Part shown: positions 5,971-34,684 of the stretch, piece by piece
Position numbering within the stretch: the first letter of the stretch is position 1
How the letters are laid out: every line of letters begins with the position of its first letter
Assembly: GCF_001561955.1 (NCBI RefSeq)
Contig: NZ_CP014223.1
Coordinates: forward strand, 1,736,001-1,800,000
Length of the DNA: 64,000 bases
Direction of reading: 5' to 3'
Source: Anaerotignum propionicum DSM 1682
GTDB taxonomy: Bacteria; Bacillota; Clostridia; Lachnospirales; Anaerotignaceae
Translations under genes and position numbers: made by a program
The notes under the pieces: generated by a model
Seen by the model: only the letters and a program-made list of their open reading frames with translations
Told to the model about the DNA's origin: nothing
Databases searched by the model: none

Positions 5971-5972
5971 TC

Positions 5973-6683: not shown

Positions 6684-6709
6684 ATCATTGTAACATTGGA
6701 GGAACCTAA

Positions 6710-7012: not shown

Positions 7013-7073
7013 ATTATTTATTTACAGGGCATGGATTATGACCAGCACTATCGTTTTTATGCTATTTGATTAA
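7002..7073 (+). pseudogene. 23-codon membrane-protein stub after padR
   Basis: An ATG overlapping the padR stop opens a 23-codon frame with a hydrophobic segment (WIMTSTIVFMLF) and then a stop. PadR genes are often followed by a membrane-protein gene, so this may be the surviving start of a deleted partner. Too short to identify. Confidence 0.25.
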
Positions 7074-18238: not shown

Positions 18239-20587
18239 ATGCTTCTTCGAAAAGCAAAGCGAACTTTATTAGCAAATAAAAAATCATATTTTGCCTGCAT
18301 GTTTTTAATTGCGGTTGGAATTATCATGCAAACCGCTTTATGTATTGCAGCTTCGGGACTTGAAAAATCCATGCTTGAATTTTATAAGTCTAATAATTTG
18401 GCAGATACATATGCAACTGTTCAATCTATGCCGGAAGACTATGTTGATACATTAGAAAAAATACCAGGTATTTCTTCCGCTGAAGGCAGATACATAGCCG
18501 AAATGCGTGCAGAAATTCCCAATTCGGATGAAACAATAACCTTAAGGCTTATTGCTGCAAATTCCATAGAGAATCCAACGCTTAACGCCTTAAACATAAC
18601 CGGTACTGCGCCTAAAAATAAAACTGAAATTTTAGTGAATCCTGCATTTTTCAAGGCAAACAATTTAAGTGAAGGTGACACTATTTCCATATTTTCAAAA
18701 GGAAAAGAATATACCTTTACTTTAACAGGCACTGCCATTAGTCCTGAATATGTTTATATAACAAAGGATATGACACAAATGCTGCCCGATGAAGCAGGCT
18801 TTGGAATTGGCTATATTACAACGGAAAGTATGGAGGCTCTCACAGGTTACGTCGGTGTGGCTAACAGTATTATTTTTCAGAGAGAAAAAGATGTTTCCTT
18901 TGATGATATAAAATTACAGTTAGAAGACTCCCTTTCCCGTTTCGGACTTAAGGAATTGTTTGATAAAGAAGACTTGTTAAGTTATTTCTTTTTGGACTTG
19001 GAAATAACCTCTATTCGTTCCATGTCAAGCTCTATGCCAACGGTCTTTTTACTTCTTGCCGCTGTAGTTCTGTATTTAATGCTAAAACGCGTCATTGACC
19101 AAGAGCGTACGCAAATCGGAACGCTGAAAGCCTTTGGTTACTCTAATATCCAGCTTATACTCCATTATCTAACCTACGGAGCTATAACAGGTACTATAGG
19201 CGGAATAACGGGCTGTATCTTAGGATATATGCTTTCAGGCCCTTATTTGGAAATGTTTCAACAATTTTTTATGCTCCCTAATATAGAAAGCAGCTTTGAC
19301 TTAAACATTATTATAAAAGCACTGAGTCTGGCAATTTTCAGCGGACTATTAGGAGCCTACGCCGGGGCGAGAAAAATGATTAGGCTAGCTCCTGCCGAGG
19401 CAATGCGCCCCGAAAGTCCAAAACCAATACGTTTTGATATCATAAAGTATTTGGGTGTTCTAAAACACTTCCTTAATTCACGGGGAAATATGTCTGTAAG
19501 AGGTATAACACGAAATCCCATAAGATCGACCTTTGTGGTTATAAGCATTATGTTTTCCTTTGGAATTATATCTATTGTGGGAAGCTTTAACGGTTTAATA
19601 GATAAAATGATTTTCAGTCAGCTTCAAGATATTCAGCGTTTTCAAGTGAAGCTGTCATTATCTCAACCCCTATCCTACGAATATGCCGTAAAAGACGCAT
19701 ACCGTTTAGAAAATATAACATATGCGGAGGGTATTTTGGAGCTCCCCTTTAAAATCTCTAATCGTCATTTGGTTGAAAATGCTATGGTTACAGGCATAAC
19801 AAAGGACTCTCAGCTTTATCATATTGTGGATACAAATACAAAAAGGACATTTGTTCCGCCTGCTGACAGCTTTATTGTCACGAACGGTCTTGCCGATCAG
19901 CTGCAGGTTAAAGCCGGGGATTATGTGACACTTTCTTCACCTTTACTTGAGAAAGATATTTCCGTTTTCGTATCAAAGGTTATCGAACAAAATATGGGAA
20001 GCGGCTGCTATACGCAGTTAGACTACCTGAGCAGTATTATAAATCATCAAAACATTGCCACATCCGTAATTTTAAATACAAATGATTTGCGAGAACTAAA
20101 AGAAACAATAAAAGGAAGCAACATTGTGACAACCATAGAAGATAAAGAAAACACTTTAAAAGGCTATCAAAAGATGATGGGAATGTTCTCCAGTCTTTAC
20201 GTTGCTCTTCAAGTTTTGGGTACATTGGTAGCTTTTGCAATTATTTATAATACAACAACGATTTCTTTGTCAGAACGTAAAAGGGAATATGCAACTTTAC
20301 GTGTTATTGGTCTTTCTGTGGGTGAGGTATCGGAAATTATGAACTTTGAGTATGCAATTCTCACATCTTTTGGCATTCTCTTAGGTATTCCTTTTACCAA
20401 ACTTCTTAACAGTTTAATGAATTTGATGGTAGATAGTGATATATACAGTATGCCTAGCACACTCCCCCTATCCGCCTATCTTATAGGTGCAAGCTGTTGC
20501 TTCTCAGCAATATTCTTGTCCGCCCGATCCGCAAGAAAAAGAATACAAACCTTTGATATGGTTGAAGTATTAAAAGAACGTGATTAA
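18239..20587 (+). CDS. ABC transporter permease with two FtsX domains
   Basis: A 782-aa membrane protein. TM1 lies near the N-terminus (about 15-37), followed by a large extracellular MacB-like domain (about 40-255), a first FtsX domain (about 260-380; TFLxAFG-like loop seen as IGTLKAFGYSNIQLI), a fourth membrane stretch near 420, a second extracellular domain (about 450-650) and a second FtsX domain (about 655-775, with YATLRVIGLSVGEV). Such long double-FtsX permeases export peptides or lipids or act in mechanotransmission. The ATG lies one base after the ATPase stop. Confidence 0.88.
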   Translation: MLLRKAKRTLLANKKSYFACMFLIAVGIIMQTALCIAASGLEKSMLEFYKSNNLADTYATVQSMPEDYVDTLEKIPGISSAEGRYIAEMRAEIPNSDETITLRLIAANSIENPTLNALNITGTAPKNKTEILVNPAFFKANNLSEGDTISIFSKGKEYTFTLTGTAISPEYVYITKDMTQMLPDEAGFGIGYITTESMEALTGYVGVANSIIFQREKDVSFDDIKLQLEDSLSRFGLKELFDKEDLLSYFFLDLEITSIRSMSSSMPTVFLLLAAVVLYLMLKRVIDQERTQIGTLKAFGYSNIQLILHYLTYGAITGTIGGITGCILGYMLSGPYLEMFQQFFMLPNIESSFDLNIIIKALSLAIFSGLLGAYAGARKMIRLAPAEAMRPESPKPIRFDIIKYLGVLKHFLNSRGNMSVRGITRNPIRSTFVVISIMFSFGIISIVGSFNGLIDKMIFSQLQDIQRFQVKLSLSQPLSYEYAVKDAYRLENITYAEGILELPFKISNRHLVENAMVTGITKDSQLYHIVDTNTKRTFVPPADSFIVTNGLADQLQVKAGDYVTLSSPLLEKDISVFVSKVIEQNMGSGCYTQLDYLSSIINHQNIATSVILNTNDLRELKETIKGSNIVTTIEDKENTLKGYQKMMGMFSSLYVALQVLGTLVAFAIIYNTTTISLSERKREYATLRVIGLSVGEVSEIMNFEYAILTSFGILLGIPFTKLLNSLMNLMVDSDIYSMPSTLPLSAYLIGASCCFSAIFLSARSARKRIQTFDMVEVLKERD

Positions 20588-20601
20588 TAAGGAGGGAAAC
20601 T

Positions 20602-21870
20602 ATGAAGAAAAAATTAATAAAAATATTGCTTGGTGTTATTATAGTAACGGCTGTTGCCGGTGGTATTTACTCGCTGAATGCGCCGAAAGAAGTTCCCTTA
20701 ACTAAAGTTGTATCAAAAACTGCAGAGCTTACCTTTACCGAACAGGGTTCTGTTGCCGGTGGAAAAACAATTCAAATATATCCTCTAAGCTCAGGCAAAG
20801 TATTAAGCGTTGAAGTAAAAAAGGGGCAGCATGTTAAAGAGGGAGATATTATATGTGTCATAGATTCTGAGGACATTAAAGAGAAAATTAACCAAACAAA
20901 CGGCTCGATAGCCGGATACAAGGCTCAGATGCAGACATGGCAAGCCCAAAACCAAAGCCAAAACCAAAGTGTCGTCGAAAAAAGAAAATTACAAAATATA
21001 ATAATCAAACAAAGTGAGAAAAATTTAGAGCTGGAAAAAAAGGATCTGGATCGGCTTCTGGTACTTTATGAAAACGGTTTTATTTCCAATGTTGACTTGG
21101 AGCAGGCCGAATCATCCGTCGAGCAGGCTGAATTAACATTGCAGAGCCATCAGCAGGAATTAGAGTTGATATCAAATGCTGATGAAAACAGCAAAATGTC
21201 AGATTATTACAAGGCATTGATTAATATAGAAGAAAGCAATTTGAAACTGCTGGAAAAAGAACTTTCACAAACTAATGTCACGGCTGTTACCGATGGAGTT
21301 ATTACAAACCTGCCTGTACAGGAAACAAATTATGTATCTGCCATGTCATCTGTTGCAGAGTTAACTGCCACAGATACGCTGTTTGTAGAAACATATGTAT
21401 CTACAAATGACATAAGCAATATTGCTCTTGGAGATTCAGTTGTATTAATAATAAAAAGACGAGATGGAGATGTTACCTTTGACGGAACAGTTTCTTATAT
21501 TGATGACACAGCAAACCTTATGATTTCTCCACTTGGATTAGAAGAAAGAAAGGTTAAGATAGAGGTAACTCCAAGTATTTCATTGACAGAAGAAAAGATT
21601 GGTATTGGGTATGATGTGGATGTACAGTTTTTACTTTACAAGGAAGAAAATAGCTTAGCCGTTCCTAAAACTGCATTATTTAAAGATAATGGAATTGATA
21701 AGGTTTGGATTGTTAATGGCAGAGCTTTGCACGCGATAGAAGTAAAAACAGGAATGGATCTACGCACCGAAACTGTAATTTTATCGGGGCTTGAATCTGA
21801 TAGCTTCGTTGTGACCGATTCAAATGACGAGATTTTAAAGGAAGGTCTTAAGGTTGTTACAAAAAAATAA
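20602..21870 (+). CDS. HlyD/MacA-like efflux adaptor protein
   Basis: A 422-aa membrane-fusion-type adaptor. One N-terminal membrane anchor (about 5-24) is followed by a biotinyl-lipoyl-like half motif (GGKTIQIYPLSSGKVLSVEV), a long coiled-coil hairpin (about 90-220, Gln/Glu/Lys-rich) and a beta-barrel with the second lipoyl half (TNVTAVTDGVITNL). In Gram-positive bacteria such adaptors extend from the membrane next to an ABC exporter. GGAGGG precedes the ATG, 14 bases after the permease stop. Confidence 0.88.
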   Translation: MKKKLIKILLGVIIVTAVAGGIYSLNAPKEVPLTKVVSKTAELTFTEQGSVAGGKTIQIYPLSSGKVLSVEVKKGQHVKEGDIICVIDSEDIKEKINQTNGSIAGYKAQMQTWQAQNQSQNQSVVEKRKLQNIIIKQSEKNLELEKKDLDRLLVLYENGFISNVDLEQAESSVEQAELTLQSHQQELELISNADENSKMSDYYKALINIEESNLKLLEKELSQTNVTAVTDGVITNLPVQETNYVSAMSSVAELTATDTLFVETYVSTNDISNIALGDSVVLIIKRRDGDVTFDGTVSYIDDTANLMISPLGLEERKVKIEVTPSISLTEEKIGIGYDVDVQFLLYKEENSLAVPKTALFKDNGIDKVWIVNGRALHAIEVKTGMDLRTETVILSGLESDSFVVTDSNDEILKEGLKVVTKK

Positions 21871-22000
21871 TATATTCAACTTATAAACTTACATAAATTT
21901 ATTTTCTTCATTTAAATACCTCCTTATGAACCCCTATTTACTCTTAGATTTAATAATATTCTTCTTTAGGAATTCCCCTTATGAAATAAATTATAAAGAC

Positions 22001-22040
22001 AAAGGAACTGATAGTGAAAACTTTCACTATCAGTTCCTTT
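22001..22040. terminator. 40-bp perfect palindrome, likely terminator
   Basis: Nineteen-base arms (22001-22019, beginning AAAGGAACTGATAG, and 22022-22040) pair perfectly around a two-base loop (AC). It lies 130 bases after the adaptor gene and abuts the RND relic. The U tract is weak (TTTGTTT), so it could also be a cruciform or an element end. Confidence 0.6.
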
Positions 22041-22380
22041 GTTTCAGTTTGAATGTTTTATCAATCTGTTTCATTATCATGGTTACAGTTCCATGGTATT
22101 TACTGGAACAATACCCCCTTTTCCATTAATGGTGAACCCATTAGTATGATGACAATGATTGCCTGTCTAGTGCTTGTAGGCATCGTTGTAAACAATGATA
22201 TCATTTTAAAGGCCTTATCACAATTTCATGAGACGGATGGAACTGATGGAAGCCGATTGATGGCCTTCCCAACCGGACCCCCCCGATACTTATGGCATCT
22301 CTGACAACAATTTAAGAGCAGTTCCCTATCATTTTCTCAACCAGTGTCAACAGTGAAATGCTTCGTGGAATGGGAACAAA
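22041..22380 (+). pseudogene. Decayed RND efflux pump fragment (AcrB-like)
   Basis: Broken reading frames match the late conserved region of RND transporters: NTPFSINGEPISMMTMIACL then VLVGIVVNNDIIL, and after frameshifts PILMASLTTI, AVP and SVNSEMLRGMGT. Intact pumps run over 1000 residues; only about 110 codons remain. It follows the TetR-ABC-adaptor operon and could be the remnant of a pump once associated with that adaptor. Confidence 0.75.
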
Positions 22381-22552
22381 AGGATTGTTGCTGATTTATC
22401 AAAAAACAGAAAAAAGAATTATGATTTTCTTATAATAGAGGACTCACGTCTTATAAAGCACGTTGTGTTACGTAAACAGTTTTATTCGTTAGTGTATTAT
22501 CCATAGCAATAAATTTTTTCTTCACCTGCAGACCTGGTGCTTCTTAAATAAT

Positions 22553-22606
22553 TTAACCCAACAATAACACCTTTGATTTCAGGTCCTATTGTTGGGTTGC
22601 TTTTTC
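22553..22606 (-). terminator. Terminator of the pan/OPT operon
   Basis: A perfect 12-bp stem, AACCCAACAATA (22555-22566) with TATTGTTGGGTT (22587-22598), follows the P1 peptidase on the minus strand. The T run (GCTTTTTCG) is on the plus side; on the minus side the stem is followed by AAATTATTT, so it may act in both directions. Confidence 0.65.
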
Positions 22607-22648
22607 GTTTACCACTCTTAATTATACCTTGTTTGCAGAAGCACAGCA

Positions 22649-23611
22649 TTATTTAAAATCTTTTGCTGCTTTCAGTCCATAAGCCGGTTCAGCTGCCTTT
22701 ACCCCTCGACAGATTGCTCTTGCCATAACTTCCGTTGCGAGTGCACCAAGAGCATCCGGCCCGACTTCCACTTCTCCGGTTGCCATAACAAAAATCGTAT
22801 CTCCATCAACAGAAGTATGAACCGGATTAATGGCCTTGGCATACCCATTATGGGTAATGCTGGCAAGCTTATTTGCCTGAACCTTCGTAAGCTTTGCATT
22901 GGTTATAACACAACCAATTGTTGTATTACCCGAAAAAACATTTCGCTTTCTGCCAATTTCGGCATACATCACTTCCTCTGTGCTCGATAAAGCTGTTTTA
23001 TCTTCTGTTATAATTCCTGCGATTCGTTTTCCCGTATCATAATCAATCACATCTCCAAGAGCATTGACCGCAACCACTGCCCCACACTGAACATCGCCAA
23101 TCTGCACTGCGTGGATTCCAAGCCCACTTTTCATCATTCTTTCAGGACCCAGAAACTTGCCTACAGATGCACCTGTTCCTGCACCTACATTTCCCTCCGC
23201 TGGCTCGCATGTTCCTGCCGCTTCGCAAGCTTCGTAACCCATGGCTTTATCTGGTCTGCATTTCGGATCGCCAACGACTAAATCAAAGAGGGATGCTCCG
23301 CAAACAATAGGCACAACTCCAACACCAACATCGAAACCAACTCCCTGCTCTTCCAAATACTCCATTGCACCGTCCCCCGCCGCAAGGCCGTAAGCACTGC
23401 CGCCGGAAAGCATAACACAATGAATCTGCTGAACCATATTGACGGGCTTTAACAGCTCTGTCTCCCTGGAAGCCGGCCCGCTCCCACGCACATCAACTCC
23501 CGCTACTGCTCCAGCTTCGCAAATTATGGCAGTACATCCCGTTGCACCTTTAAAATTCTGCGCATGTCCAATCTTAATTCCCTTTATTTCTGAAATTTTA
23601 ATTTCCTTCAT
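22649..23611 (-). CDS. P1-family (DmpA-like) N-terminal nucleophile peptidase
   Basis: A 320-aa member of the P1/DmpA family (peptidase S58): self-cleaving hydrolases acting on D-amino-acid amides, beta-aminoacyl peptides and related amides. Visible family blocks are GIKIGHAQ at the start, CVMLSGGSAYGL, GNVGAGTGASVGK and the autoprocessing region SGNTTIGCVITNAKLTK, where cleavage before a Thr would expose the nucleophile. The ATG at 23611 is preferred over 23617, which almost touches the AAAGGAA site. It is the last gene of the operon. Because some P1 enzymes cut beta-alanyl bonds, it is one candidate for releasing beta-alanine from pantothenate or a pantothenyl compound; this is inference. 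Confidence 0.85.
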   Translation of the reverse strand: MKEIKISEIKGIKIGHAQNFKGATGCTAIICEAGAVAGVDVRGSGPASRETELLKPVNMVQQIHCVMLSGGSAYGLAAGDGAMEYLEEQGVGFDVGVGVVPIVCGASLFDLVVGDPKCRPDKAMGYEACEAAGTCEPAEGNVGAGTGASVGKFLGPERMMKSGLGIHAVQIGDVQCGAVVAVNALGDVIDYDTGKRIAGIITEDKTALSSTEEVMYAEIGRKRNVFSGNTTIGCVITNAKLTKVQANKLASITHNGYAKAINPVHTSVDGDTIFVMATGEVEVGPDALGALATEVMARAICRGVKAAEPAYGLKAAKDFK

Positions 23612-23674
23612 ACACATTTCCTTTCTTCAGATGAGGGCGGCTTTTGCCGCCCTCATCTTCTGTCGTCTTTTTAA

Positions 23675-25330
23675 TTACGCAATAAACTGCACTGCCATGA
23701 TAATTGCAATAATAACACCTACCACCGCTTCGCCACCCAAAAGCCCTGCACCAATAATGGTACCTTTTCCTTCCCTTTCAAACTGGGGATAAACTTTGTC
23801 AAGAATGAAGCGGATGGCTGCTCCGATAAAAGCCGTAAAGGATAAATAGAACGGCAGATAAACGCCAAGTCCAAGGGTCATAACAGGATAAAATCCTACA
23901 ATATAAAGAATGGCAGCTACCACAAGTCCAGTTATAAACGCTGGTACATGAGAAATTCCTCCGGCCATAGCTGCTACAGCAGATGCCTGCGCTGCAGGGA
24001 AAAGTTCCGGATTGCCAAAAGCAGAAGGACCATAGGCCTGAATAATAGCCATGATGACAAATACGGATACAACCGCCCCAACAAGACCACCGATTAATTC
24101 TCCTGTCCACTGGGCTTTGGGGCTGGACTTCAAAATGCTCCCTGCTTTAAAATCGTTCATAACATCGCCCACAAGACCGCAGGCAATTGCAACAATAGCT
24201 GCAATACAAATGGCTGCAACTTCTGTAATTCCGGGAGAACAAAGCTTTGCAAGAATCAGTACGAAAATACCAAACACTTCCATAGGGTTAATGGCGGACA
24301 TACCAACCGTTTGACAAGACATGGCAGTTGCAAGCCAAACCCCTATAATTGTAATAATTGCAGCAACAACCGGAACGTCAACAATAATTACAAAAAGTGC
24401 TGCAAAAAGTGCCATCAAGATTGGTGCCCATCTCAAGGGGACAATTGAATCCCCAATGGAATCCTTGGATACCATAGACCCAAAGATTGCCTTAAAATTT
24501 GGAAAGATGTTTTTAATAAACACACCCACGCCCGTTCCTACCATCATCCCAAGTCCCAGTCCACTTTTGATATTTGCTGCTGTCGTTGCGTCAAAAAAAC
24601 CTAACCGCTGACCGCCGATTAAAATACCCACATCACCGATAAGTGCTCCAAAGAACCATACACCCACAAATATAGGGCCTACAAGGTAGCCAACAGATAC
24701 AAGCATCGGCGAAAGCCAAACACCTCCGTAGGAACCATAATTCAGCCAACTGCCGCCGCCAAACCAAAGGACAGCCGGAATCTTCATGAACCAGTCACGA
24801 AGAGCAGTCCAAATAGCAGCGAAGCCCAATGCCCCAAAGAGTGTATGTGCCTTTTTCCCTCCTTCGTCGCCAACGATCAGGGCCTCTGCAGCTGCCTGAC
24901 CCATGGCATAGGGAAGTTTTGATGTTTCTATGAACTGTTTTCTCATAAGAGATGTAAATATAAGCCCCAGCATAGTACCACTAATTGTGATGACAAGCAA
25001 TTTAGCCAAACCTAATTCCGAATTGGGATACAGCATATAAATTGCCGGAATGGTAAAGGCTACGCCACCGGCCACCATTGAACCGGCTGACATTGCGGTG
25101 TGTGTTACATTGATTTCATTAATATTGGTTCTTCCCAATGCTTTTAATGCAAACATGGATACGAGCGCAACAAACATAATGGGGAATGGTAACGATGATG
25201 CTTTCAATGCTATAAACATAGATGAACATGTTACAATGACTACGCCGATGACACCAATTATCATACCACGAACAGTTAGCTGTTCCTTATACGATGTGGC
25301 ATATTTGACGCTCTTCGATTCTTGAGCCAT
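23675..25330 (-). CDS. OPT-family oligopeptide transporter
   Basis: A 551-aa membrane protein with about fourteen hydrophobic segments, of the OPT family (bacterial oligopeptide branch). Recognisable stretches are TVRGMIIGVIGVVIVTCSS near the N-terminus, KLPYAMGQAAAEALIVGDEG and, near the C-terminus, VGFYPVMTLGLGVYLPFYLS. OPT proteins use proton symport to take up small peptides or metal chelates. It sits between a P1 peptidase and an amidohydrolase, so imported amide-bonded compounds could be cut by either enzyme. GGGGG precedes the ATG. Confidence 0.9.
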   Translation of the reverse strand: MAQESKSVKYATSYKEQLTVRGMIIGVIGVVIVTCSSMFIALKASSLPFPIMFVALVSMFALKALGRTNINEINVTHTAMSAGSMVAGGVAFTIPAIYMLYPNSELGLAKLLVITISGTMLGLIFTSLMRKQFIETSKLPYAMGQAAAEALIVGDEGGKKAHTLFGALGFAAIWTALRDWFMKIPAVLWFGGGSWLNYGSYGGVWLSPMLVSVGYLVGPIFVGVWFFGALIGDVGILIGGQRLGFFDATTAANIKSGLGLGMMVGTGVGVFIKNIFPNFKAIFGSMVSKDSIGDSIVPLRWAPILMALFAALFVIIVDVPVVAAIITIIGVWLATAMSCQTVGMSAINPMEVFGIFVLILAKLCSPGITEVAAICIAAIVAIACGLVGDVMNDFKAGSILKSSPKAQWTGELIGGLVGAVVSVFVIMAIIQAYGPSAFGNPELFPAAQASAVAAMAGGISHVPAFITGLVVAAILYIVGFYPVMTLGLGVYLPFYLSFTAFIGAAIRFILDKVYPQFEREGKGTIIGAGLLGGEAVVGVIIAIIMAVQFIA

Positions 25331-25412
25331 AGTTCAGCGCCCCCTTTCCTATATCACGATAAACCAACACCTTACTAATTTTATCTGACAGGCTTATATA
25401 GCACAAAGACTT

Positions 25413-27059
25413 TTACTTTTGATATTCAATAACACCATCAATCATAGTCATTTCCACTTCCAAGTTCATAATGCTCATAGTTGGGATGGAAAGAATATCA
25501 TCTGTGAGAACAATCAAATCTGCCAGTTTTCCGACCTCAACACTGCCTTTAATATCTTCTTCAAAAGAACTATAAGCTCCATTTAACGTAGCACAACGAA
25601 TTGCTTCAAGAACGGATACAGCCTGGGTTTTATCACACTGGAATCCCACTGACCTATCGTAGCGGTTTACAGCAGCATCTAATAGGGCAAGCCCCCCAGG
25701 ATACGATGGCGTATCACTATGTAAAGAGCATTTTACTCCGGCATCCAGCATGCTTCGTATAGCACAGATATATTTATTTCGATTCTCACCATAGAAATCA
25801 ACGAATTTTGCTCCCATCTTCTGAATAGAAGATACATTTACACTTGGACAGATATTCATTTTTGCCATGCGGTTTACTAGGTCTTGATCCACAATGGTAC
25901 AATGCTCAATCCTATGGCGAAGATCCGGTCTGGGATTTGTTTCAAAGGCTTTTTCATATCCCTCAACCATAAATTCAATTGCTAAATCTCCAATGGCATG
26001 GGCAGTTGCCTGACACTCGGCATCGTTGATTTTTTTAATATACTCCGCTACTTCCTTCTTCTCCCATGCTCTTTCCCTCGGAAGGTTGTGATTGTGGGAA
26101 AAAGGCTCTCTCGTTGCACAAGAGGGGCCTCCGGAGCCGCCGTCAATCATAAATTTTGAACTGCCAATCTTAAAGTGTTCATCTCCAAGACCACTGGTTA
26201 AACCTAATTCCAGAAAATGTTCGTTATCCATTAAAGAATATCTTTTACCAAAAATGCTGTGTAACATCATGTAGGAACGGACTTTAAACTTACCCTCTTT
26301 GCATAGTTTCTGCATAATATGATACGACGGTTTGTCGCATTCTCCACAGTCGTGAATAGATGTAATACCGTTCTCCAAACAATGTTGATGTGCTTTCATT
26401 GCCGCCTTTGCCTGAGCTTCTTGTGTATATTCAACTTTACCCCAGAGCCAGAAATGGGTACTTCCCCTAACCATTCCTGTCAATTTTCCTTCGACTACTT
26501 CCACTTCATTTTCTGGATACTTTTTAGCATCCTGTGGAGAATGCACATCTAAATATTCCAATGCTTTGGAGTTATACATGCAGATATGTCCTCCCCCATG
26601 CATACAGTGCACAGGGTTGTTTGGTGCTACGTCATCCAATTCATCAATGGTAGGATGACGCTGTTCCGGAAAAAGGGTAGGCTCATAGCCCATCATGGAA
26701 ATCCATTGTCCCGGCTTTTTTAATTTTGCAGCCTCCCGAGCCATATTCAACATGTCGGAAAGAGATTTGCAATTCCCATAAAAGGTATCAATCATGGGTG
26801 CATCCAAATCCTTTCCTAAAAGACCGGAGAGAATGGGGTGGTAATGAGAGTCTATCAATCCCGGCATTAAAGTCTTGCCCTTCAAATCAATTATTTTTGT
26901 TTTATCTGTTGTAATCTTTAAAATTTCCTCATTCGAACCAACAAAAACTATTTTATTTCGTTTAATCCCAACAGCTTCTGCAATTTCATCTCTATCATTT
27001 ACAGTAATCACCTTGCCACCTATAAAAGCCGTGTCTATATATGAAAAATCAAACTTCAT
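25413..27059 (-). CDS. YtcJ-like metal-dependent amidohydrolase
   Basis: A 548-aa amidohydrolase of the YtcJ/amidohydro_3 family, which hydrolyses amide or formamide bonds. The metal-binding pattern is complete: GLIDSHYHP near residue 70, ATAHAIGD and RHRIEHCTI in the barrel, and LHSDTPSYPGG late. An N-terminal beta-sandwich (about 1-60) and its C-terminal return (about 500-548, KLADLIVLTDDIL) flank the barrel. GGAGGAG precedes the ATG. In this operon it is a second candidate for cleaving the amide of pantothenate or a pantothenyl compound; the true substrate is unknown. Confidence 0.88.
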   Translation of the reverse strand: MKFDFSYIDTAFIGGKVITVNDRDEIAEAVGIKRNKIVFVGSNEEILKITTDKTKIIDLKGKTLMPGLIDSHYHPILSGLLGKDLDAPMIDTFYGNCKSLSDMLNMAREAAKLKKPGQWISMMGYEPTLFPEQRHPTIDELDDVAPNNPVHCMHGGGHICMYNSKALEYLDVHSPQDAKKYPENEVEVVEGKLTGMVRGSTHFWLWGKVEYTQEAQAKAAMKAHQHCLENGITSIHDCGECDKPSYHIMQKLCKEGKFKVRSYMMLHSIFGKRYSLMDNEHFLELGLTSGLGDEHFKIGSSKFMIDGGSGGPSCATREPFSHNHNLPRERAWEKKEVAEYIKKINDAECQATAHAIGDLAIEFMVEGYEKAFETNPRPDLRHRIEHCTIVDQDLVNRMAKMNICPSVNVSSIQKMGAKFVDFYGENRNKYICAIRSMLDAGVKCSLHSDTPSYPGGLALLDAAVNRYDRSVGFQCDKTQAVSVLEAIRCATLNGAYSSFEEDIKGSVEVGKLADLIVLTDDILSIPTMSIMNLEVEMTMIDGVIEYQK

Positions 27060-27249
27060 TGTCTCCTCCCCCCAATTAAAATCCTCATAGCAGAAGGTAT
27101 TAACAACACTAATTTATTCAGTGAAAGTTTGCGTGCCTCACTACATGTAGAAGCTAACGCCCCACCAAAAGGCGGAGCTCCCTTCTGTTCAATGACACAA
27201 TCCCTGTTGTTCATAAGCTTACTTTAATTTTCATTTTTGATTTTATAGC
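27060..27249. other. Intergenic hairpin between panF and amidohydrolase
   Basis: AGCT and CGCC (27152-27162) pair with GGCG and AGCT (27171-27179) around CCACCAAAA; CTACATGTAG (27141-27150) is also self-complementary. The hairpin may be a processing or attenuation site splitting the operon into two expression levels. Confidence 0.4.
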
Positions 27250-28755
27250 TTATGAATAGAACAATTTCATTATTTCTTCATCTGGTTTTTTACCTATCAA
27301 ACTGCCAATAACAAATACCACAATTGAAATCACAATAGATGGTACAATGGGGGTGGTACCAAAAATACTTACTTTATAAGTAGTCATAAGCAAGAAAGAA
27401 ACAACGCCGATAACACTGGATAAAACTGCACCTGTGGCATTTGCTCTCTTCCAATATAATCCAAATAAGATTGGACATAAGAATGCACATTCAAGGCCAC
27501 CCATAGCGAAAAGATTAATCCAAACAATTAAATCAGGTGGATAAATTGTAAATACGAATACAATAACACCTACAAACAATGTGGTAATCATACTCATCTT
27601 TCCAATTTTCTTTTCAAATTTTGCGTCTGTCTTATCCACATTGCCTTTCTCCTTTGCAATGTAGTTTAAATAAATATCCTTGATAATCGCCGCAGAAGCC
27701 AAAATCAACAGAGAAGATACTGTTGACATAACTGCAGATAGAGGTGCTGCAATAAATAAGCCCGCCACAACTGGATTCATATATTTCAACACCAAAGTAG
27801 GCACAACATAGTCAGAAGAAGAAATCTCACTTGGATCTAAAATTGCAGGTGCAAATGCCCCTGAGATATGCATAACCAGCATCAAAAATCCGACTACGAT
27901 GGTGCCATAAATCATAGCACTGTGGAGGGATTTTGTATCCTTGAAGCCCATGCCTCTTACGGCAGTTTGGGGTAGACCCAACACGCCGATACCAACAAGT
28001 ACCCAGAAAGACATTACGTATGCCTTTGGTGTTGTACCACCTACGGTAGGGTCATTCCAAGTGGGATTCACAACGTTAAGTTTCTCAACAATCGCTTCAA
28101 ATCCTCCGCCTACCTTTACAATGGTGAACAAAATAATGAACCCGCCCATTACCATAACCAATCCCTGTATGGTGTCCGTAGTTACTACCGCCTTAAACCC
28201 ACCAATGGTTGTATAAAGGATGACAATAGCTCCAAAGAGAAGCAAGCCATACACATAAGGAAGCCCTGTAATTGTCTGGAATAAAACGGCCCCACCAATA
28301 AATTGAGACATCATCTGTGCAATAAAGAACAAAACAAGGGCTATGGAAGAAATGATAACCACTGCAGGTGATTTATATCTTGCTTTTAAATAGTCCGTCA
28401 CCGTTACAGCGTTTGTCTTTCTTGAAATAATGGCAAACTTCTTGCCCAAAATTCCTAAAATGATGAAAGCTGTGGGAACCTGAATGATAGATAAGTATAC
28501 CCAAACAAGTCCTTTGGAATATGCAACACCAGGGCCACCGATAAAACTACTGGCACTTGTGAAAGTAGCAATCAACGTCATCGCCAGAACAAGACCACCC
28601 ATAGACCTTCCACCAATAAAGTAGTTATTAATAAACCCAGTCCCAGCTTCAGCATCTATCTTAGCCTGTTTTTTGCTGATAAAAAGGCCAATGCCCAAGT
28701 TTGCAAGGAGATAGAGCACTAAAACAGTCATTAAAATTATCGTATATGAACTCAT
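27250..28755 (-). CDS. panF: Sodium/pantothenate symporter
   Basis: A 501-aa sodium:solute symporter with about thirteen membrane segments. The N-terminal pattern FIGGRSMGGLVLAMTLIATF and the following TSASSFIGGPG are those of the PanF branch of the SSS family, as are ISRKTNAVTVTDYL and TTIGGFKAVVTTDTIQG. It imports pantothenate with sodium. Its start overlaps the yhdT stop (ATGA). The YhdT partner strengthens the PanF call over other SSS members. Confidence 0.9.
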   Translation of the reverse strand: MSSYTIILMTVLVLYLLANLGIGLFISKKQAKIDAEAGTGFINNYFIGGRSMGGLVLAMTLIATFTSASSFIGGPGVAYSKGLVWVYLSIIQVPTAFIILGILGKKFAIISRKTNAVTVTDYLKARYKSPAVVIISSIALVLFFIAQMMSQFIGGAVLFQTITGLPYVYGLLLFGAIVILYTTIGGFKAVVTTDTIQGLVMVMGGFIILFTIVKVGGGFEAIVEKLNVVNPTWNDPTVGGTTPKAYVMSFWVLVGIGVLGLPQTAVRGMGFKDTKSLHSAMIYGTIVVGFLMLVMHISGAFAPAILDPSEISSSDYVVPTLVLKYMNPVVAGLFIAAPLSAVMSTVSSLLILASAAIIKDIYLNYIAKEKGNVDKTDAKFEKKIGKMSMITTLFVGVIVFVFTIYPPDLIVWINLFAMGGLECAFLCPILFGLYWKRANATGAVLSSVIGVVSFLLMTTYKVSIFGTTPIVPSIVISIVVFVIGSLIGKKPDEEIMKLFYS

Positions 28756-29048
28756 CCTTCATCCTCCTCTCCTTTGTCCTCATCCGCTACTTCATCAAGA
28801 CTAAAGTCTTTGAAAAACAGCTTGACAACAACAATTACAGCAATACTGAATAATACATAGCCCACAACGCAGCTTAGGAAGAACCAAAGGGGTAATCCCA
28901 TAATATAAATATACTCTTTGGAAGCTTCTGCCAAACCATAGCCAGCAAAATACCACCATAAAAAGAAAGCAACATAAAGACCAATGGAAATAAGAGCTTC
29001 CTTTTTAATCTGAAGATTTCTCTCCTTTTCCGTCAGTTTCGGCACCAT
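28752..29048 (-). CDS. yhdT: YhdT-family small membrane protein
   Basis: A 98-aa protein with two membrane segments (ISIGLYVAFFLWWYFAGYGL and FFLSCVVGYVLFSIAVIVVV) and an acidic tail. This is the pattern of YhdT (DUF997), a small protein found next to PanF in many bacteria and thought to be its accessory subunit. The frame is open to 29099, but the ATG at 29048 follows AAAGGAGGG and is preferred. Confidence 0.85.
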   Translation of the reverse strand: MVPKLTEKERNLQIKKEALISIGLYVAFFLWWYFAGYGLAEASKEYIYIMGLPLWFFLSCVVGYVLFSIAVIVVVKLFFKDFSLDEVADEDKGEEDEG

Positions 29049-29120
29049 ATCTTTCCCTCCTTTAATCATGTTATAACACCTATGCAACCATACTTGCAAA
29101 TAACCGCAAAATTGGTATAC

Positions 29121-30041
29121 TTACTCCTTTCTTTCGAAATAATGAATTAGAGCACAAAGCACTTGGTTTACTGGGGTGGCAAGGCCTGTGCTTTTGCCTT
29201 CTCTCACAATTGCACCATTAATCATATCAATTTCTGTTCGCTTATGATGCAACACATCCTGAAGCATAGATGATTTATTGGCTGCCGTCGCTTTGCAAAC
29301 CTCCTTGGTATGTGCCACAGGATCTGTAAACCCTAAAACAATTCCCTTGGCATTTGCAACCGCAATACCTTCCTTCACAGCCTCTTCCAATATTCCTTCG
29401 ATTTCAGGATGCGCAAGTATTTCTCCGTTTGTCAGCTTCGTAATTCCCGTTAATGCATTAATACCCACATTTACAAGAAGTTTATCCCACACAAGCCCCA
29501 ATACGTTTTCCGAAACTTCAACTTCCAATCCTGCTGCAGAAAAAACTTCTGCGATCTCATTTATTCTTTTGCTTCTTACTCCGGAAAGCTCGCCAATCAT
29601 TGTTTTTCCTACGCCCGCATGGCGTATCTTTCCAGGTCCCAACATGGTAGCACCGTGAGCGGTGGTTCCCGCCATTACATTTTCTGCCCCAATCAAGGAA
29701 CCGATACTTTCGATGTTGCCTACCCCATTTTGCAAGGTAATTGCGATTGTATTACCCCCAAAGACAGCTTTATTCGCTTCTACAGCCTGCTCCGTCAACG
29801 TGGATTTCACGAATATAATTGCCAAGTCAACAATGCCAACCGCCACGGCATCTGTGGCAGCTGTCAAATGATTATAACACAACAACGCACCGTTTTCTTC
29901 CATATGAAGACCATCATTGTTAATGGCGTTTACATGCTCTTTCCAAATGTCAAGGAGATAGACTTGGTTGCCAGGCACTGTAGATAATTTAGCCCCATAA
30001 AGGCATCCCATTGCTCCTGCACCAATGATCGCAATTTTCAT
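29121..30041 (-). CDS. panE: 2-dehydropantoate 2-reductase
   Basis: A 306-aa ketopantoate reductase, interconverting ketopantoate and pantoate with NADP(H). The Rossmann loop is GAGAMGCLYGAKL at the N-terminus; LQNGVGN, the catalytic lysine region WDKLLVNVGINALTGI and the substrate-side glutamate in SSMLQDVLHHKRTEIDMING are all present. Length is normal. PanE homologues include reductases for other 2-keto acids, but the neighbouring panB supports ketopantoate. In the context of a PanF importer and no panC or panD, it may run in the oxidative direction. Confidence 0.88.
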   Translation of the reverse strand: MKIAIIGAGAMGCLYGAKLSTVPGNQVYLLDIWKEHVNAINNDGLHMEENGALLCYNHLTAATDAVAVGIVDLAIIFVKSTLTEQAVEANKAVFGGNTIAITLQNGVGNIESIGSLIGAENVMAGTTAHGATMLGPGKIRHAGVGKTMIGELSGVRSKRINEIAEVFSAAGLEVEVSENVLGLVWDKLLVNVGINALTGITKLTNGEILAHPEIEGILEEAVKEGIAVANAKGIVLGFTDPVAHTKEVCKATAANKSSMLQDVLHHKRTEIDMINGAIVREGKSTGLATPVNQVLCALIHYFERKE

Positions 30042-30102
30042 TTGACCGATTCCCTTTCTACATTATGATATATGATGATATATGCTAAACCGTTTTGTTC
30101 CA

Positions 30103-30933
30103 TTAATACAATTTTGGAATATCTACTTGTTTATTAAAAGAGAATTCAGGAGACGGGAAAGTTCCCTCCAGTGTCTCCTTATGAAATTCGTTCAGCCCTT
30201 CAATCATAACCTGTCTAACCTGTGCGAATTGCTTCACAAATTTGGGTTTAAAATCGCCGTACATGCCAAGAAGATCTTGGGTCACAAGAACCTGGCAGTC
30301 AACATGGGGGCCTGCTCCAATTCCCAGAATTGGGATTTCCACAGCTTCCGATACTGCTTTGCCAACCCCAGAAGGGACACATTCCAATACAATTGAAAAG
30401 CATCCAGCTTTTTCTAATTCTATTGCATCCTTAATTAGCTTTGCAGCGCTTTCAGGAGTACCGCCCTGCACCTTAAATCCCCCCAGCGAAGAGGCTGTTT
30501 GTGGTGTCAGTCCGATGTGCCCCATAACATTGATACCAGCTCCGACAATCGCCTTAATCTGCGGAAGCATTTCAACGCCGCCCTCCAGTTTAACGCAGTC
30601 ACAATTTGTCTCCTTGATGAGGCGGACAGCATTGGCAACTGCAATTTCTGGTGTAATATAGGACCCAAAGGGCATATCGCCAATAATCCATGTATTGGGA
30701 GCGCCCTTTACCACTGGGCGGATGTGATGCACCATATCATCCATCGTTACAGATTCTGTCCCTTTGTAACCCAACATAATCATACCTAAAGAATCTCCTA
30801 CTAGGATAATATTGCAATCGCTTTCATCAACAATTGTTGCTGTTGTATAGTCATAAGCGGTTACAAAGCTAAATCTCTTTCCCTCCTTTTTAAATTTCTT
30901 AAAATCTCCCACCGTCATTTTTACTTTTGCCAT
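30103..30933 (-). CDS. panB: 3-methyl-2-oxobutanoate hydroxymethyltransferase
   Basis: A 276-aa PanB, which adds a hydroxymethyl group from methylene-tetrahydrofolate to 2-oxoisovalerate to give ketopantoate; the reaction is reversible. Conserved blocks are VGDSLGMIMLGY with the metal-binding Asp, VKLEGGVEML, NVMGHIGLTPQTASSLGGF, and SIVLECVPSGVGKAV with the catalytic Glu, then LGIGAGP. All are intact and the length is usual. AAGGAGGG precedes the ATG. It lies between iclR and panE. Confidence 0.95.
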   Translation of the reverse strand: MAKVKMTVGDFKKFKKEGKRFSFVTAYDYTTATIVDESDCNIILVGDSLGMIMLGYKGTESVTMDDMVHHIRPVVKGAPNTWIIGDMPFGSYITPEIAVANAVRLIKETNCDCVKLEGGVEMLPQIKAIVGAGINVMGHIGLTPQTASSLGGFKVQGGTPESAAKLIKDAIELEKAGCFSIVLECVPSGVGKAVSEAVEIPILGIGAGPHVDCQVLVTQDLLGMYGDFKPKFVKQFAQVRQVMIEGLNEFHKETLEGTFPSPEFSFNKQVDIPKLY

Positions 30934-31137
30934 GGTCTTATCCCTCCTTTAATAGTTTTAGCACCTAATAAATTGCTGTTCTTTCTCCTAAAGAAACGCT
31001 GATGTAATAGAGGGTGCGCAGATAGTCGAGGAAACTTTTCTATTGGCAAGGAAAAAACGCAAGAATAGCAGCTACTACGAATTTTTTTGACGCAGCCAAG
31101 AGGAAAATTTACTCATTAGATGTGTGCACGTAATGAT

Positions 31138-31914
31138 CTAGCGTTTCCCTAACTCTTTTGACAGTAGCTCCGCCGTATCCTTTACAAGACTTACATAATA
31201 CTCCCTGTTTTCCGCTTCGTTATATCTAAGCTTCGGCATGGAAATGCTGAGGGCAGCAACAGGGTTATTCCTGTAATCAAAAATCGGTGCAGCAAAAGAA
31301 ATTAGTCCATAGACATATTCTTCTTCATCTTTGGCATAACCATTTTTTCTGACAAGCTCCAACTGGTCAATGAGGGCTTCCCTACTGGCAACCGTCTTTT
31401 CTGTACGCTTTTGAAAACTTGTGTTATTCATAATTTCATTCTGAATATCTTCAGGAAGAAAAGCAAGAATCGCCTTCCCCATTCCAGTACAATACATAGG
31501 AATGGCTGTTCCGGTTTTAATACCCACCTTTATGGCAGAATTACTCTCAATCTTGTCAACATAAACGATATTATTGCCACTATGCATACTTAAATTAATT
31601 GTCTCCTTCGTTTCTTTTGCAACAGCTTCTATGTATGGCCTGGCGATTTCTTTCAAACCTGTTCTTTCGATTATGCTACTTCCAATGGTAAAAAGCTTAA
31701 TACTGTTTGAATATTTTCTGGTATACGGATTCTGCACAATATATCCGGCCTCTTTTATGGTACTAATCAAACGATGTACAGTGGTTTTATCCATGGAAAG
31801 CGCATGGCTTAACTGCCCAATGGAAAGTTCTCCAAATCTATCTAATTCCTCAATAATCTGAAACGCCTTTAATATGGACTTGACACTATTTTCCCGTTTA
31901 GTAACAGCATTCAT
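31138..31914 (-). CDS. IclR-family transcriptional regulator
   Basis: A 258-aa IclR-type regulator: winged-helix domain (about 10-75, with LSIGQLSHALSMDKTTVHRL) and a C-terminal effector domain (about 90-255, with GTAIPMYCTGMGKAILAFLP). IclR proteins mostly govern catabolic operons and bind small acids. It is upstream of panB on the same strand, 204 bases away, and is the probable regulator of the operon. A 37-bp palindrome lies 220 bases before it. A pantothenate-related effector (pantoate, ketopantoate or 2-oxoisovalerate) is inferred. Confidence 0.9.
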   Translation of the reverse strand: MNAVTKRENSVKSILKAFQIIEELDRFGELSIGQLSHALSMDKTTVHRLISTIKEAGYIVQNPYTRKYSNSIKLFTIGSSIIERTGLKEIARPYIEAVAKETKETINLSMHSGNNIVYVDKIESNSAIKVGIKTGTAIPMYCTGMGKAILAFLPEDIQNEIMNNTSFQKRTEKTVASREALIDQLELVRKNGYAKDEEEYVYGLISFAAPIFDYRNNPVAALSISMPKLRYNEAENREYYVSLVKDTAELLSKELGKR

Positions 31915-32136
31915 TTTATTCTATCCTCCCATAGCACCTTTCTTTTATAAGCAATTCGGTTAAACAATAACCCCACCACTTATGATATTTTCCCGGTGAC
32001 AATCAATAAAATGTTTGATGAAGTCATTCATCTTCTCAATCAAAAAACCAAGACGTCGCCTTCGTTTTTTCAATGCCATCTAAGAGTAAAACCTAACCTC
32101 TGTGGATTTTCATAACTTCATTATATTTTCACCCTC

Positions 32137-32173
32137 ATATCATAATACGAAATAATATTTCGTATTATGATAT
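32137..32173. promoter_or_regulatory. 37-bp palindrome, possible IclR operator
   Basis: Seventeen-base arms (ATATCATAATACGAAAT, 32137-32153, and its complement, 32157-32173) are perfectly complementary around a three-base centre. The core ATACGAAAT-n3-ATTTCGTAT has the size and symmetry of IclR-family sites. It is 220 bases upstream of iclR, with only a doubtful small frame between. Confidence 0.5.
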
Positions 32174-32359
32174 CTCTTTAAGAGAACAATCTAAAATTTA
32201 AAATTATTATTTTCGCGTTCAACCTTTCTCTCCTTGTTAATGGAAACAACATTTAAAATTCAGCGTATTTGAATCTCTTTAAGAATTACAGTTTAAATTA
32301 GTAGATTATGTGTACTGGTTTAATAACCATTGTTTTCATTCATCGTTAGTCTATGTAAC

Positions 32360-32660
32360 ATCAGCTGCATTCATATGCCAACCTCATCCTCTCCTGAATA
32401 CAAAAAATCCGAGAGTCAGGAAAATATTCCCAGCTCCCGGAAACCCCATATTTCAAGGCTTTTTCAAGCACTTATATGTCCCCTCCCGGCAGCAATCACT
32501 ATGCCGCTAATGAGAACAAGCGTAGGGACTGATGGCACACCAAAAGGCATACAACCTAAAACCTATAGAATGAATGCGTAATTCCAACCCAATGTAGCTG
32601 CATGGTTTAATAGTGCTTCTTCAGAAGCTGGATCATGCAGCGAAACGCACAAGTAAAACC
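32360..32660 (-). pseudogene. Decayed membrane-protein fragment
   Basis: The minus strand reads with interruptions as coding sequence: DPASEEALLNHAATLGWNYA, a stop, then MPFGVPSVPTLVLISGIVIA and AAGRGHISA. The hydrophobic segment suggests a transporter remnant, but I could not assign the family. Confidence 0.35.
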
Positions 32661-32732
32661 TGTAGCTTTTGTCAATATCAAAAGCTTTGATTGACTCAGA
32701 TAGAGCCCTGTTTAGCCTTCAGGAGCAGTAAT

Positions 32733-32787
32733 AAAAATCCCGATAAAGTGTCCCTTTCATATGCAGGAACACCCTATCAGGATTTTG
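32733..32787. terminator. Terminator-like long hairpin
   Basis: AAAATCC-GATA-GTGT-CC on the left arm (32734-32753) pairs with GG-ACAC-TATC-GGATTTT (32765-32786), with small interruptions. It lies downstream of the EAL-HDOD gene on the minus strand and probably ends that transcript. Confidence 0.65.
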
Positions 32788-32938
32788 ATATAGAAGAAAG
32801 GCAACACGTTTGGCCGGCAGTCTAACTGGCAGGAAATCTTTTCTTATAGATTTGGACAGGACGGCCGTGCCGGGAGGCGTTGGTATTCCGCATCCGATGC
32901 TGTTTTATATGTGCCCTATTTTGCTTTGACCGGAACAA

Positions 32939-34261
32939 TTATACGTTCTCGTCAGGGGGATTTGCGGGAGCGGTAATCCGTGCCCAGATCATATTCGCGC
33001 GATCCACAGAATCAAAATACAAACTAGTGAGCAGGTTAGTAGGGATATGAAGTTCGTCTGCCAAAGTAGTGATGCGATTCCAGTCGGCCCGTTCATAGCT
33101 GAGAAGCAAAGAAAACAGTTTGCCGGCGGACCCCTTTTGGTAGAGCAAGGCATCTCTGACTTCATCTGCAACTGGGACTTCAGACAAAATTTCTTCCATG
33201 GGTGCGTCTACCAGACAGCCCAGAGTAGAAAACATACCGATCAGATAGGCGTCACCCTTAGTGATGGAGAGCGTATTCTGCGTGTAATCACTTAGATCAC
33301 TGCAGAAATTCGCCCGCAAGAAAGACAACTTGAGGAACTCCTCACACGAAGGATCGATTTCATTTTCCACATTGCTGGCACTGAGAAAATAGATCCATTG
33401 ACGTAACTGACCAAGCCCCAGAGTCATAATGGCCTGGCGGATGGTGGTAGATCGGTGCTTGGAAGAAAAATAGACGGAGTTTGCCATTCGCAGCAGGCCG
33501 AAGACCATGGAAGCGTCTTGGGAGACCAGTTGCTCAATCTCGTCAATATCCGGTTCATCCTGCGTGATGGCCACTATCAGTCGGAAAAAGTTGCTTTGCA
33601 GATATCCGCTGGTGTGTGCTTTGGATGAGAGCTTTTCTGCCACAAAAGTCCCCTCCAACGCATCTACGCGCAGATTTATTGCGCAATTGTAAAGCTCCTC
33701 GCTGGTAATATTTGTTGCGATACATTTCTTGTCCATGCTATGGGCAAGCTCAATGATGTTGGACAATGTCGACACCGGAGTCGTGGAAAAATTCAGCTTG
33801 ATATAATGAATCTTGTCCATCAGAGCTAAATAACGAGGAGCAAATCTGAATTCGTTTACCGCGATTTTGTACCCCTCTTTTGCAAACTTCTGGACGAAAT
33901 TCATGGCCAGCGGATAGATGATTGCATTATCTTCAATCTGAATAACCAATTCAGACTTTTTGAATATCCGGGGTGCGTTCTTCATTAGCAGAGTAGGTGT
34001 GAAAGTCATGAAATTCAAAGTCCCCGTCAGAGATTTATCGGTATTCTGCGTTAAAAAATTATAAATGGCATTTGCCGCGGCAAAGTCATTTCTAAAAGCC
34101 GGAGCATTGGATGCAGAAGGAGTGGAGGCGTCGCCCCCTCCCGAAGAAGATGGGTAGTCAGCGCCAAATGCCTGATTTTCTCCGTAGTAGAGAAGTTCAT
34201 AGCCGATGACATTGCTGTCCCTGTCTTTAATTGGCTGTCGTACAATATACTTGCTGTTCAC
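32939..34261 (-). CDS. EAL-HDOD signalling protein
   Basis: A 440-aa protein with an N-terminal EAL-type domain (about 1-225) and a C-terminal HDOD domain (about 230-425, with DASMVFGLLRMANSVYFSS). The EAL domain starts in the YuxH style (IVRQPIKDRDSNVIGYELLY), but the EAL motif reads ELL and several catalytic acids are not obvious, so cyclic-di-GMP hydrolysis is doubtful and binding or protein contact is more likely. A low-complexity insert (SSSGGGDASTPSASN) lies in the first 60 residues. The start is GTG at 34261 with AAAGGAG upstream. Confidence 0.85.
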   Translation of the reverse strand: MNSKYIVRQPIKDRDSNVIGYELLYYGENQAFGADYPSSSGGGDASTPSASNAPAFRNDFAAANAIYNFLTQNTDKSLTGTLNFMTFTPTLLMKNAPRIFKKSELVIQIEDNAIIYPLAMNFVQKFAKEGYKIAVNEFRFAPRYLALMDKIHYIKLNFSTTPVSTLSNIIELAHSMDKKCIATNITSEELYNCAINLRVDALEGTFVAEKLSSKAHTSGYLQSNFFRLIVAITQDEPDIDEIEQLVSQDASMVFGLLRMANSVYFSSKHRSTTIRQAIMTLGLGQLRQWIYFLSASNVENEIDPSCEEFLKLSFLRANFCSDLSDYTQNTLSITKGDAYLIGMFSTLGCLVDAPMEEILSEVPVADEVRDALLYQKGSAGKLFSLLLSYERADWNRITTLADELHIPTNLLTSLYFDSVDRANMIWARITAPANPPDENV

Positions 34262-34684
34262 TGTATTCTCCTTTCGGCAGGCTTCGGTAGCGTTCTTTTT
34301 TACGTCCGTTACACCTGTTTTTTATGTAGAATAGCATCTTTATATTATATTAATCGGCAAGATTTAGAAAGAAATAACACTTTTTTGAGTTTTACAGACA
34401 ATTGCAATATTTTTCACCCAAAAACAATATTCAACACAAATAGTCAGCAACCTGTCCTAGTCAACCAAAATTGTAGTACCACAATACAAGAAAGGACGGT
34501 GTACGGCATATGGTAGCCCTCATTATAAGAGTATGGTCTGACGTGGTAATTTTTCACATCAGTTAAATTTCATTGAGAATACCTGAAAAACAAAATGAGC
34601 CTTTACACTTAAAAGGCTCATTTTTATAAGTAAAAAAAGATATTCAGTTAAAATTCACTCTGACAAACGGGAGACAGTGCTCTT
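34262..34684. other. Intergenic stretch before the EAL-HDOD gene
   Basis: It holds the EAL-HDOD upstream region and a terminator (34592-34624). I see no gene or other motif. Confidence 0.5.
34588..34626. terminator. Terminator after the AgrC/AgrA-like pair
   Basis: A perfect 13-bp stem, AAAATGAGCCTTT (34592-34604) with AAAGGCTCATTTT (34612-34624), has A and T runs on both sides. It ends the minus-strand kinase operon. Confidence 0.8.

Follow-up and report, generated by a model that had tools for sequence, protein, structure and literature searches.

Does a gene cluster that carries the PanB and PanE families of pantothenate (vitamin B5) biosynthesis beside a pantothenate importer make the vitamin or take it apart? 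The question arises in a 64,000-nucleotide stretch of Anaerotignum propionicum DSM 1682 (contig NZ_CP014223.1, positions 1,736,001 to 1,800,000; here called the window), in which eight open genes run along the minus strand from 31914 to 22649 in the order iclR-panB-panE-yhdT-panF-amidohydrolase-OPT-S58. An earlier note, made from the letters alone, had reported these genes in this order on one strand and had read them as a catabolic operon of biosynthetic enzymes run in reverse. The genes stand as it described, and its catabolic reading gains from an extra PanB, from product-using genes in relatives, from genomes that bear the genes and lack PanC, and from an NAD-type aspartate in PanE. Because extra, separately regulated copies of PanB and PanE stand here with an importer and amide-cutting enzymes, and because these are joined in relatives by genes that would consume the products, the set most likely degrades vitamin B5 rather than makes it. 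We consider it quite probable that all eight genes belong to one operon, under IclR control, that serves pantothenate breakdown.

We infer the substrate, the direction of the reactions, the cofactor and the part played by the S58 hydrolase as follows. PanF, with YhdT, would import pantothenate, and an amide hydrolase, most likely S58, would cut it to D-pantoate and beta-alanine. PanE2, a predicted NAD-linked pantoate dehydrogenase, would oxidize pantoate to ketopantoate with NAD as oxidant, and PanB2, a predicted retro-aldolase, would split ketopantoate into 2-oxoisovalerate and methylene-tetrahydrofolate. 2-Oxoisovalerate would then pass to isobutyryl-CoA via a ferredoxin oxidoreductase, the one-carbon (C1) unit would leave through FolD and formyltetrahydrofolate synthetase (FTHFS) as formate with a gain of ATP, and beta-alanine would be channelled into the acryloyl-CoA route known from this bacterial group. 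By current naming, Clostridium propionicum is an Anaerotignum. Its fermentation of beta-alanine runs through the acryloyl-CoA pathway (PMC4832176).

A separate panB-panC locus

The window genome, a single contig of 3.12 Mb, holds a second set elsewhere, in which a gene for a DUF2520-domain reductase precedes panB (PanB1) and panC (at C1:938862) comes directly after panB; panD was searched for in this genome and not found. DUF2520 reductases can presumably replace PanE (as PanG). Given this reductase-PanB1-PanC set, the window PanB (PanB2) is an extra copy, and a panC with its own panB elsewhere strengthens the catabolic case. Anaerotignum sp. MB30-C6 likewise holds both loci. The earlier note had remarked on the absence of panC and panD from the window, which we confirm, and had held that both genes elsewhere, co-regulated under pantothenate starvation, would speak against breakdown; as far as seen, of the two only panC, with its own panB, lies elsewhere. 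The eight-gene set is not the biosynthetic pantothenate set. What it has in common with panB/panC/panD/panE biosynthesis is members of the PanB and PanE families whose catalytic residues are intact, but unlike that set it has neither panC nor panD, has a PanB and PanC elsewhere in the genome, and includes an importer and an IclR regulator, with C1 and ferredoxin oxidoreductase genes in some relatives.

Among 15 genomes with S58-type loci (taken without completeness ratings), PanB was found in all 15, PanC over the cut-off in seven and PanD in one, and PanC was present in six of the 10 genomes reached with PanE as query. Combined, 12 of the 25 genomes bearing the genes have no PanC over the cut-off, and there the usual synthesis would not be the task of PanB and PanE. 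Completeness ratings for three PanC-less genomes (G459, G561 and G644) are 99, 100 and 97%, the last with 6% contamination; Chakrabartyella piscis, with a single chromosome contig, has one PanC match below the cut-off (19.8 versus 20.7 bits) with two internal stops.

Genes linked to the cluster in relatives

Ferredoxin and VorABC (VOR, the ferredoxin oxidoreductase) genes stand between PanE and OPT-S58 in locus L061 and in L053, which reads IclR-PanB-PanE-(one unassigned frame)-ferredoxin-VorABC-OPT-S58, and lie farther upstream in L121. C1 genes occupy comparable places in other loci: FTHFS-cyclodeaminase-FolD-PanB-PanE-OPT-S58 in L063, FTHFS-PanB-PanE-M20-OPT-S58 in L058, FTHFS-cyclodeaminase-FolD-S58 in L060, FTHFS-FolD-OPT-S58 in L068 and YhdT-PanF-S58-FTHFS-cyclodeaminase-FolD in L059, while L118 combines FTHFS and FolD-PanB with an acetate/propionate-family kinase that overlaps S58, followed by PanE. 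VOR and C1 enzymes are each reversible by themselves. Linked as they are here, they fit the two products of a reversed PanB, 2-oxoisovalerate and methylene-tetrahydrofolate, and would use them; a trace vitamin would hardly need dedicated copies of central C1 enzymes and VOR.

PanB and PanE of the cluster

In a PanB tree of 30 rows (small reference set, midpoint root, the ‘cluster’ label being loose for L057 and L180), the window PanB falls within a group of eight PanBs from similar clusters (support 100/99), and the panC-linked PanBs, four of four, fall in one group (98/97). At what we take to be the metal-ligand and catalytic positions of PanB, residues D86, K115, E117, H139 and E184 are kept in 23 of 23 rows and D47 in 22, with one gap; at the presumed catalytic positions of PanE, K187, N105 and E270 are kept in all 23.

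An aspartate where strand 2 of the nucleotide fold ends usually goes with NAD, NADPH enzymes having another residue there. This aspartate is present in 23 of 23 cluster PanEs, none of which has the non-Asp residue of an NADPH-type ketopantoate reductase; it suggests that these PanEs use NAD, which would suit the oxidation of pantoate. The nearest solved PanE relatives, 3hwr and 5hws, lack the strand-2 aspartate; 8wl1 and 8wl3 have it.

Distribution of the cluster

Scanning the genome collection with an S58 alignment confirmed at least 153 relatives, of which the best 80 loci were kept. PanB occurs in 12 of the 80, PanE in 12 and at least one of the two in 13, where our own arithmetic (18 over-cut-off PanBs per ~40 Mb; locus total at most 1.7 Mb) leads us to expect fewer than one PanB. 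These 13 pan-linked loci span Bacillota, Spirochaetota (L118, L123, L128) and Atribacterota (L121). In all three phyla there are loci with S58 close to PanE, PanB or PanF; it overlaps PanE by 4 bases in L118 and L128 and stands 2 bases from it in L123. On the S58 tree the pan linkage needs at least three changes (starred branches), so that it arose, or was retained, in separate lineages. OPT directly precedes S58 in 16 of the 80 loci, and L059, without PanB or PanE, retains YhdT-PanF-S58. The full gene order is kept in Anaerotignum MB30-C6, and Chakrabartyella piscis has seven of the eight genes together in another arrangement with no IclR match; this recurrence is more than chance.

The trait is rare and patchy. 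Within the genus, a close S58 (at least 78%) was found in three of eight genomes, namely the window genome itself, G004 and G006. Across the Clostridia, S58 at E ≤1e-115 occurs in five of 391 genomes, the window genome included; G473 is the only one of the remaining four with the cluster. An S58 match at E 1e-60 was found in 30 of 247 genomes of the Spirochaetota, and only the query adjoins PanE and PanB within 1.5 kb. In a set of 17 regions from relatives, compared together with a second S58 locus of the window genome, the 11 with S58 at ≤53% (L040-L050) contain PanB or PanE in none and PanF in one (L049).

A search free of S58 bias was made with the window PanE against 391 Clostridia genomes, which gave 10 other matches at E 1e-55 or better. 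PanB adjoins PanE in nine of these loci and is separated from it by one gene, an M20 deacylase, in L163; no PanC match was found in the fetched stretches (4–19 kb) of the 10. IclR is present in six, TRAP transporter genes in five, YhdT-PanF in three, FTHFS and FolD in two each and a cyclodeaminase in one, and a weaker VorABC (30–33% identity) lies in L166. The M20 deacylase occurs in two (L163, L170), another Amidohydro_3 protein stands beside formiminotransferase genes in L173, and L174 has a Peptidase_M29. The idea that S58 is present in every such cluster was dropped as an artefact of the S58 query. From the varying content of S58, M20, PanF and TRAP it follows that the transporter and the amidase vary, and that PanB, PanE and often IclR stay. 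IclR keeps its place in L052, L053 and L055, and YhdT lies directly upstream of PanF in the window and in L052, L054, L059, L167, L170, L173.

Across these loci we lean, with some reserve, towards a way of fermenting vitamin B5 without oxygen that recurs, in scattered fashion, in Bacillota, Spirochaetota and Atribacterota. It would combine uptake by PanF, OPT, TRAP or ABC transporters, a pantothenase of the S58, M20 or amidohydrolase type, an NAD-linked PanE, a retro-aldol PanB, and VOR with FolD-FTHFS; isobutyrate, formate and ATP would result, and the fermentation of beta-alanine would be separate.

Several of the PanE-seeded loci have features of their own. In L163, the order PanB-M20-PanE-OPT-S58-IclR adjoins a uracil-degradation set (positions 1725-7354: genes of the uracil permease, dihydropyrimidinase and dihydropyrimidine dehydrogenase types). 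Uracil degradation also yields beta-alanine. TRAP genes stand directly with PanE-PanB in L167, L168, L169, L171 and L172, with IclR in four of the five and S58 in L168 only; the four without an amidase match may take up and break down pantoate itself. L166 (6882-17386) holds two PanBs, PanE, FTHFS, a UxaA-like dehydratase, a Lar_N-domain protein and a branched-chain-type ABC transporter, and may degrade another hydroxymethyl or hydroxy acid.

Which enzyme is the pantothenase?

Assignment of any cluster hydrolase as pantothenase follows gene linkage, and each is a candidate. The earlier note left the cut to one of the two amide hydrolases of the window; its reversal of PanE and PanB is supported by the evidence above. 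S58 is our first choice, with somewhat better than even chances, because it is the sole amidase type of the three detected in the L053, L061 and L063 clusters and because it adjoins PanF in L059. Its Asn-Thr pair (N231-T232), also found in ThnT and a nylon hydrolase, is kept in 13 of 15 rows, the other two being gapped; we take this pair to be the S58 processing site. The window amidohydrolase is an unlikelier pantothenase, with roughly one chance in five by our reckoning; its type occurs in three of the 13 related S58 loci (L052, L054, L101) and its best solved relatives are uncharacterised.

Both this amidohydrolase and the M20 enzyme of L170 are real rivals to S58, and they raise the possibility that the catabolism is as proposed, with S58 being instead a pantetheine hydrolase that feeds pantothenate to the true pantothenase, namely the amidohydrolase in the window or the M20 ArgE/DapE-type deacylase in relatives. 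ThnT, a relative of S58, trims a pantetheinyl group to cysteamine, as described in excerpts of PMC6097109. Pantothenate is an N-acyl amino acid, M20 scores over the ArgE/DapE deacylase cut-off in three of three tested, and L170 reads PanB-PanE-M20-YhdT-PanF with no S58 match. On the other side, the PanB-PanE-OPT-S58 clusters that singled out S58 above have no match to M20 or to the window-type amidohydrolase, and in L059 it is S58 that has PanF for a neighbour. We regard this division of labour as possible, though doubtful, and keep S58 as the preferred candidate. The earlier note had also named pantothenyl peptides as a substrate, for which we found no support beyond the OPT gene.

S58 genes occur in other settings as well. 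A second S58 gene of the window genome (L034 7485-8414; G000:C1:810487-811401) is ~50% identical to the first and has no PanB, PanE or PanF in 16 kb. In L127, L129 and L131 (Brevibacillus and another Bacillota genome), S58 is followed by an M20 deacylase that is 60–61% identical to the cluster M20, with no PanB or PanE; an aldehyde dehydrogenase gene follows the S58-M20 pair in L129 and lies upstream of it in L127.

Evidence against breakdown and other readings

A number of observations weigh against pantothenate breakdown by these genes. The window operon itself carries no VOR, FolD or FTHFS gene (the genome has a VorA relative, at 52%), and both direction and substrate are putative. In principle the reactions that follow hydrolysis can run either way, and at equilibrium the PanE reaction lies on the side of pantoate, so that pantoate oxidation must be pulled. 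In the PanB tree, three spirochaete cluster PanBs and one L166 PanB fall on the panC-linked side. G061, G064 and G068 hold one PanB, within the cluster, with PanC elsewhere, which means that this PanB may serve both directions, and the single PanB of G065 and G066 adjoins PanC. Most S58 loci (67 of 80, many cut by contig ends) lack PanB and PanE, six of them being OPT-S58 alone, and 29 of 30 spirochaete S58 matches have neither gene within 1.5 kb. Among the 10 PanE-seeded loci, S58 is present in just two (L163, and L168 at a contig end), the M20 cluster of L170 does without it, and seven have no match to S58, M20 or the window-type amidohydrolase, not every frame having been searched. The strand-2 aspartate is likewise shared with the PanE-family proteins of PDB 8wl1 and 8wl3, and such Asp-type proteins presumably may act on other D-2-hydroxy acids.

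This last point leads to an improbable alternative, in which the module degrades some other D-2-hydroxy or hydroxymethyl acid (e.g. pantoate, pantolactone or an N-acyl beta-amino acid) imported by PanF. The TRAP-linked PanE-PanB pairs (five of 10 PanE-seeded loci, four of the five without S58, M20 or window-type amidohydrolase match) and the two PanBs with a UxaA-like dehydratase in L166 would fit it, as would the aspartate common to the KPR-family proteins 8wl1 and 8wl3; against it, the window PanF clears the cut-off for pantothenate symporters by a wide margin, and the window PanB exceeds that of the panB equivalog. It is very improbable that the cluster is instead biosynthetic, building pantoate from 2-oxoisovalerate and methylene-tetrahydrofolate with S58 or another amidase in place of PanC, for although 12 PanC-less genomes have the usual look of a displaced enzyme and all steps but hydrolysis are reversible, PanC is present in the window genome and in 13 of the 25, PanD was not found in 14 of 15, the window has an IclR regulator and imports through PanF by prediction, amide formation in water would fall to a hydrolase that uses no ATP, and dedicated VOR, FTHFS and FolD copies would be out of scale for a trace vitamin.

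Relation to known systems

Pseudomonas carries out the later steps of pantothenate breakdown by other oxidations, in which the 4-hydroxyl of pantoate gives aldopantoate, and not by reversed PanE and PanB. The first step is alike: the pantothenase of Pseudomonas fluorescens (EC 3.5.1.22), according to excerpts of PMC10393543, begins as the proposed route would, with pantothenate going to pantoate and beta-alanine. Publications on pantothenate hydrolysis in Pseudomonas go back to 1966, to judge from the reference list of that paper, which, in the same excerpts, calls the protein behind the activity unknown as of 2023. E. coli and other isolates, including prototrophs, are described there as making the same split of supplied pantothenate, but they reuse the beta-alanine to rebuild CoA, whereas the window operon would carry pantoate onward. 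ThnT of the thienamycin pathway shares with the window protein the S58 family, the Asn-Thr pair and amide hydrolysis on a pantothenate-containing compound; it differs in serving antibiotic synthesis and in freeing cysteamine, at another amide bond, whereas the window S58 accompanies PanB, PanE and PanF. A literature search over titles and the starts of abstracts, with few subscription journals, returned no described gene cluster for pantothenate catabolism, and only PMC10393543 bears on the topic.

The clusters offer two or three candidate proteins for the bacterial pantothenase. If the proposed route is true, they would supply the missing gene for that enzyme and show a whole vitamin pathway turned round for energy, some anaerobes would feed on a vitamin needed by the organisms around them, and to annotate PanB and PanE in operons of this kind as B5 synthesis would be a mistake, above all where PanC is lacking.

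Operon layout and regulation

All eight window genes were assigned by Pfam (Table 1); for the S58 gene, NCBIfam gives no match. The tight spacing claimed earlier applies to most gaps, which in operon order measure 204, 61, 21–72 (depending on the yhdT start, by eye probably 29048), −4, 190, 82 and 57 bases, the negative value being the yhdT/panF overlap; it does not extend to iclR-panB (204) or panF-amidohydrolase (190). The iclR-panB gap (30933-31138) is 44 bases in Anaerotignum sp. MB30-C6, leaving ~160 bases extra in the window.

Table 1. Genes of the putative pantothenate-breakdown operon, in operon order (window coordinates).
Gene product	Position	Strand	Assignment
IclR-type regulator, operon gene 1	31138..31914	-	IclR_C 173.9 bits, with HTH_IclR
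PanB2, ketopantoate hydroxymethyltransferase paralogue	30103..30933	-	TIGR00222 292.2 bits (cut-off 207.55); PF02548 over cut-off
PanE2, ketopantoate reductase family	29121..30041	-	TIGR00745 277.1 bits (cut-off 141.35)
YhdT/DUF997 small membrane protein, PanF partner	28752..29099	-	PF06196 97.5 bits
PanF, sodium/pantothenate symporter	27250..28755	-	TIGR02119 580.4 bits (cut-off 328.05)
YtcJ-like Amidohydro_3 metal hydrolase, second candidate amidase	25413..27059	-	PF07969 270.1 bits
OPT-family transporter	23675..25330	-	PF03169 155.9 bits; below its NCBIfam cut-offs
Peptidase_S58 (P1) hydrolase, first pantothenase candidate	22649..23617	-	PF03576 123.6 bits (cut-off 23.9)

A riboswitch was sought with an Rfam scan of window positions 20000-35000, in which no family exceeded its gathering score. 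Scans for promoters and terminators did no better than chance (29 versus 25.4 expected and 10 versus 8.4 expected, respectively), and a plasmid search (‘near’ matching) gave no match. Upstream of iclR, the window sequence and its MB30-C6 counterpart align at 47%, so that no operator can be named. By eye, GC-rich hairpins are visible in two gaps, OPT-S58 (23617-23674), where MB30-C6 also has one despite base changes, and panF-amidohydrolase (27059-27249); these possibly reflect RNA processing or partial termination within the operon. Just beyond the operon end, an 83-codon frame (22053-22304) resembles, by eye, a piece of an RND efflux protein.

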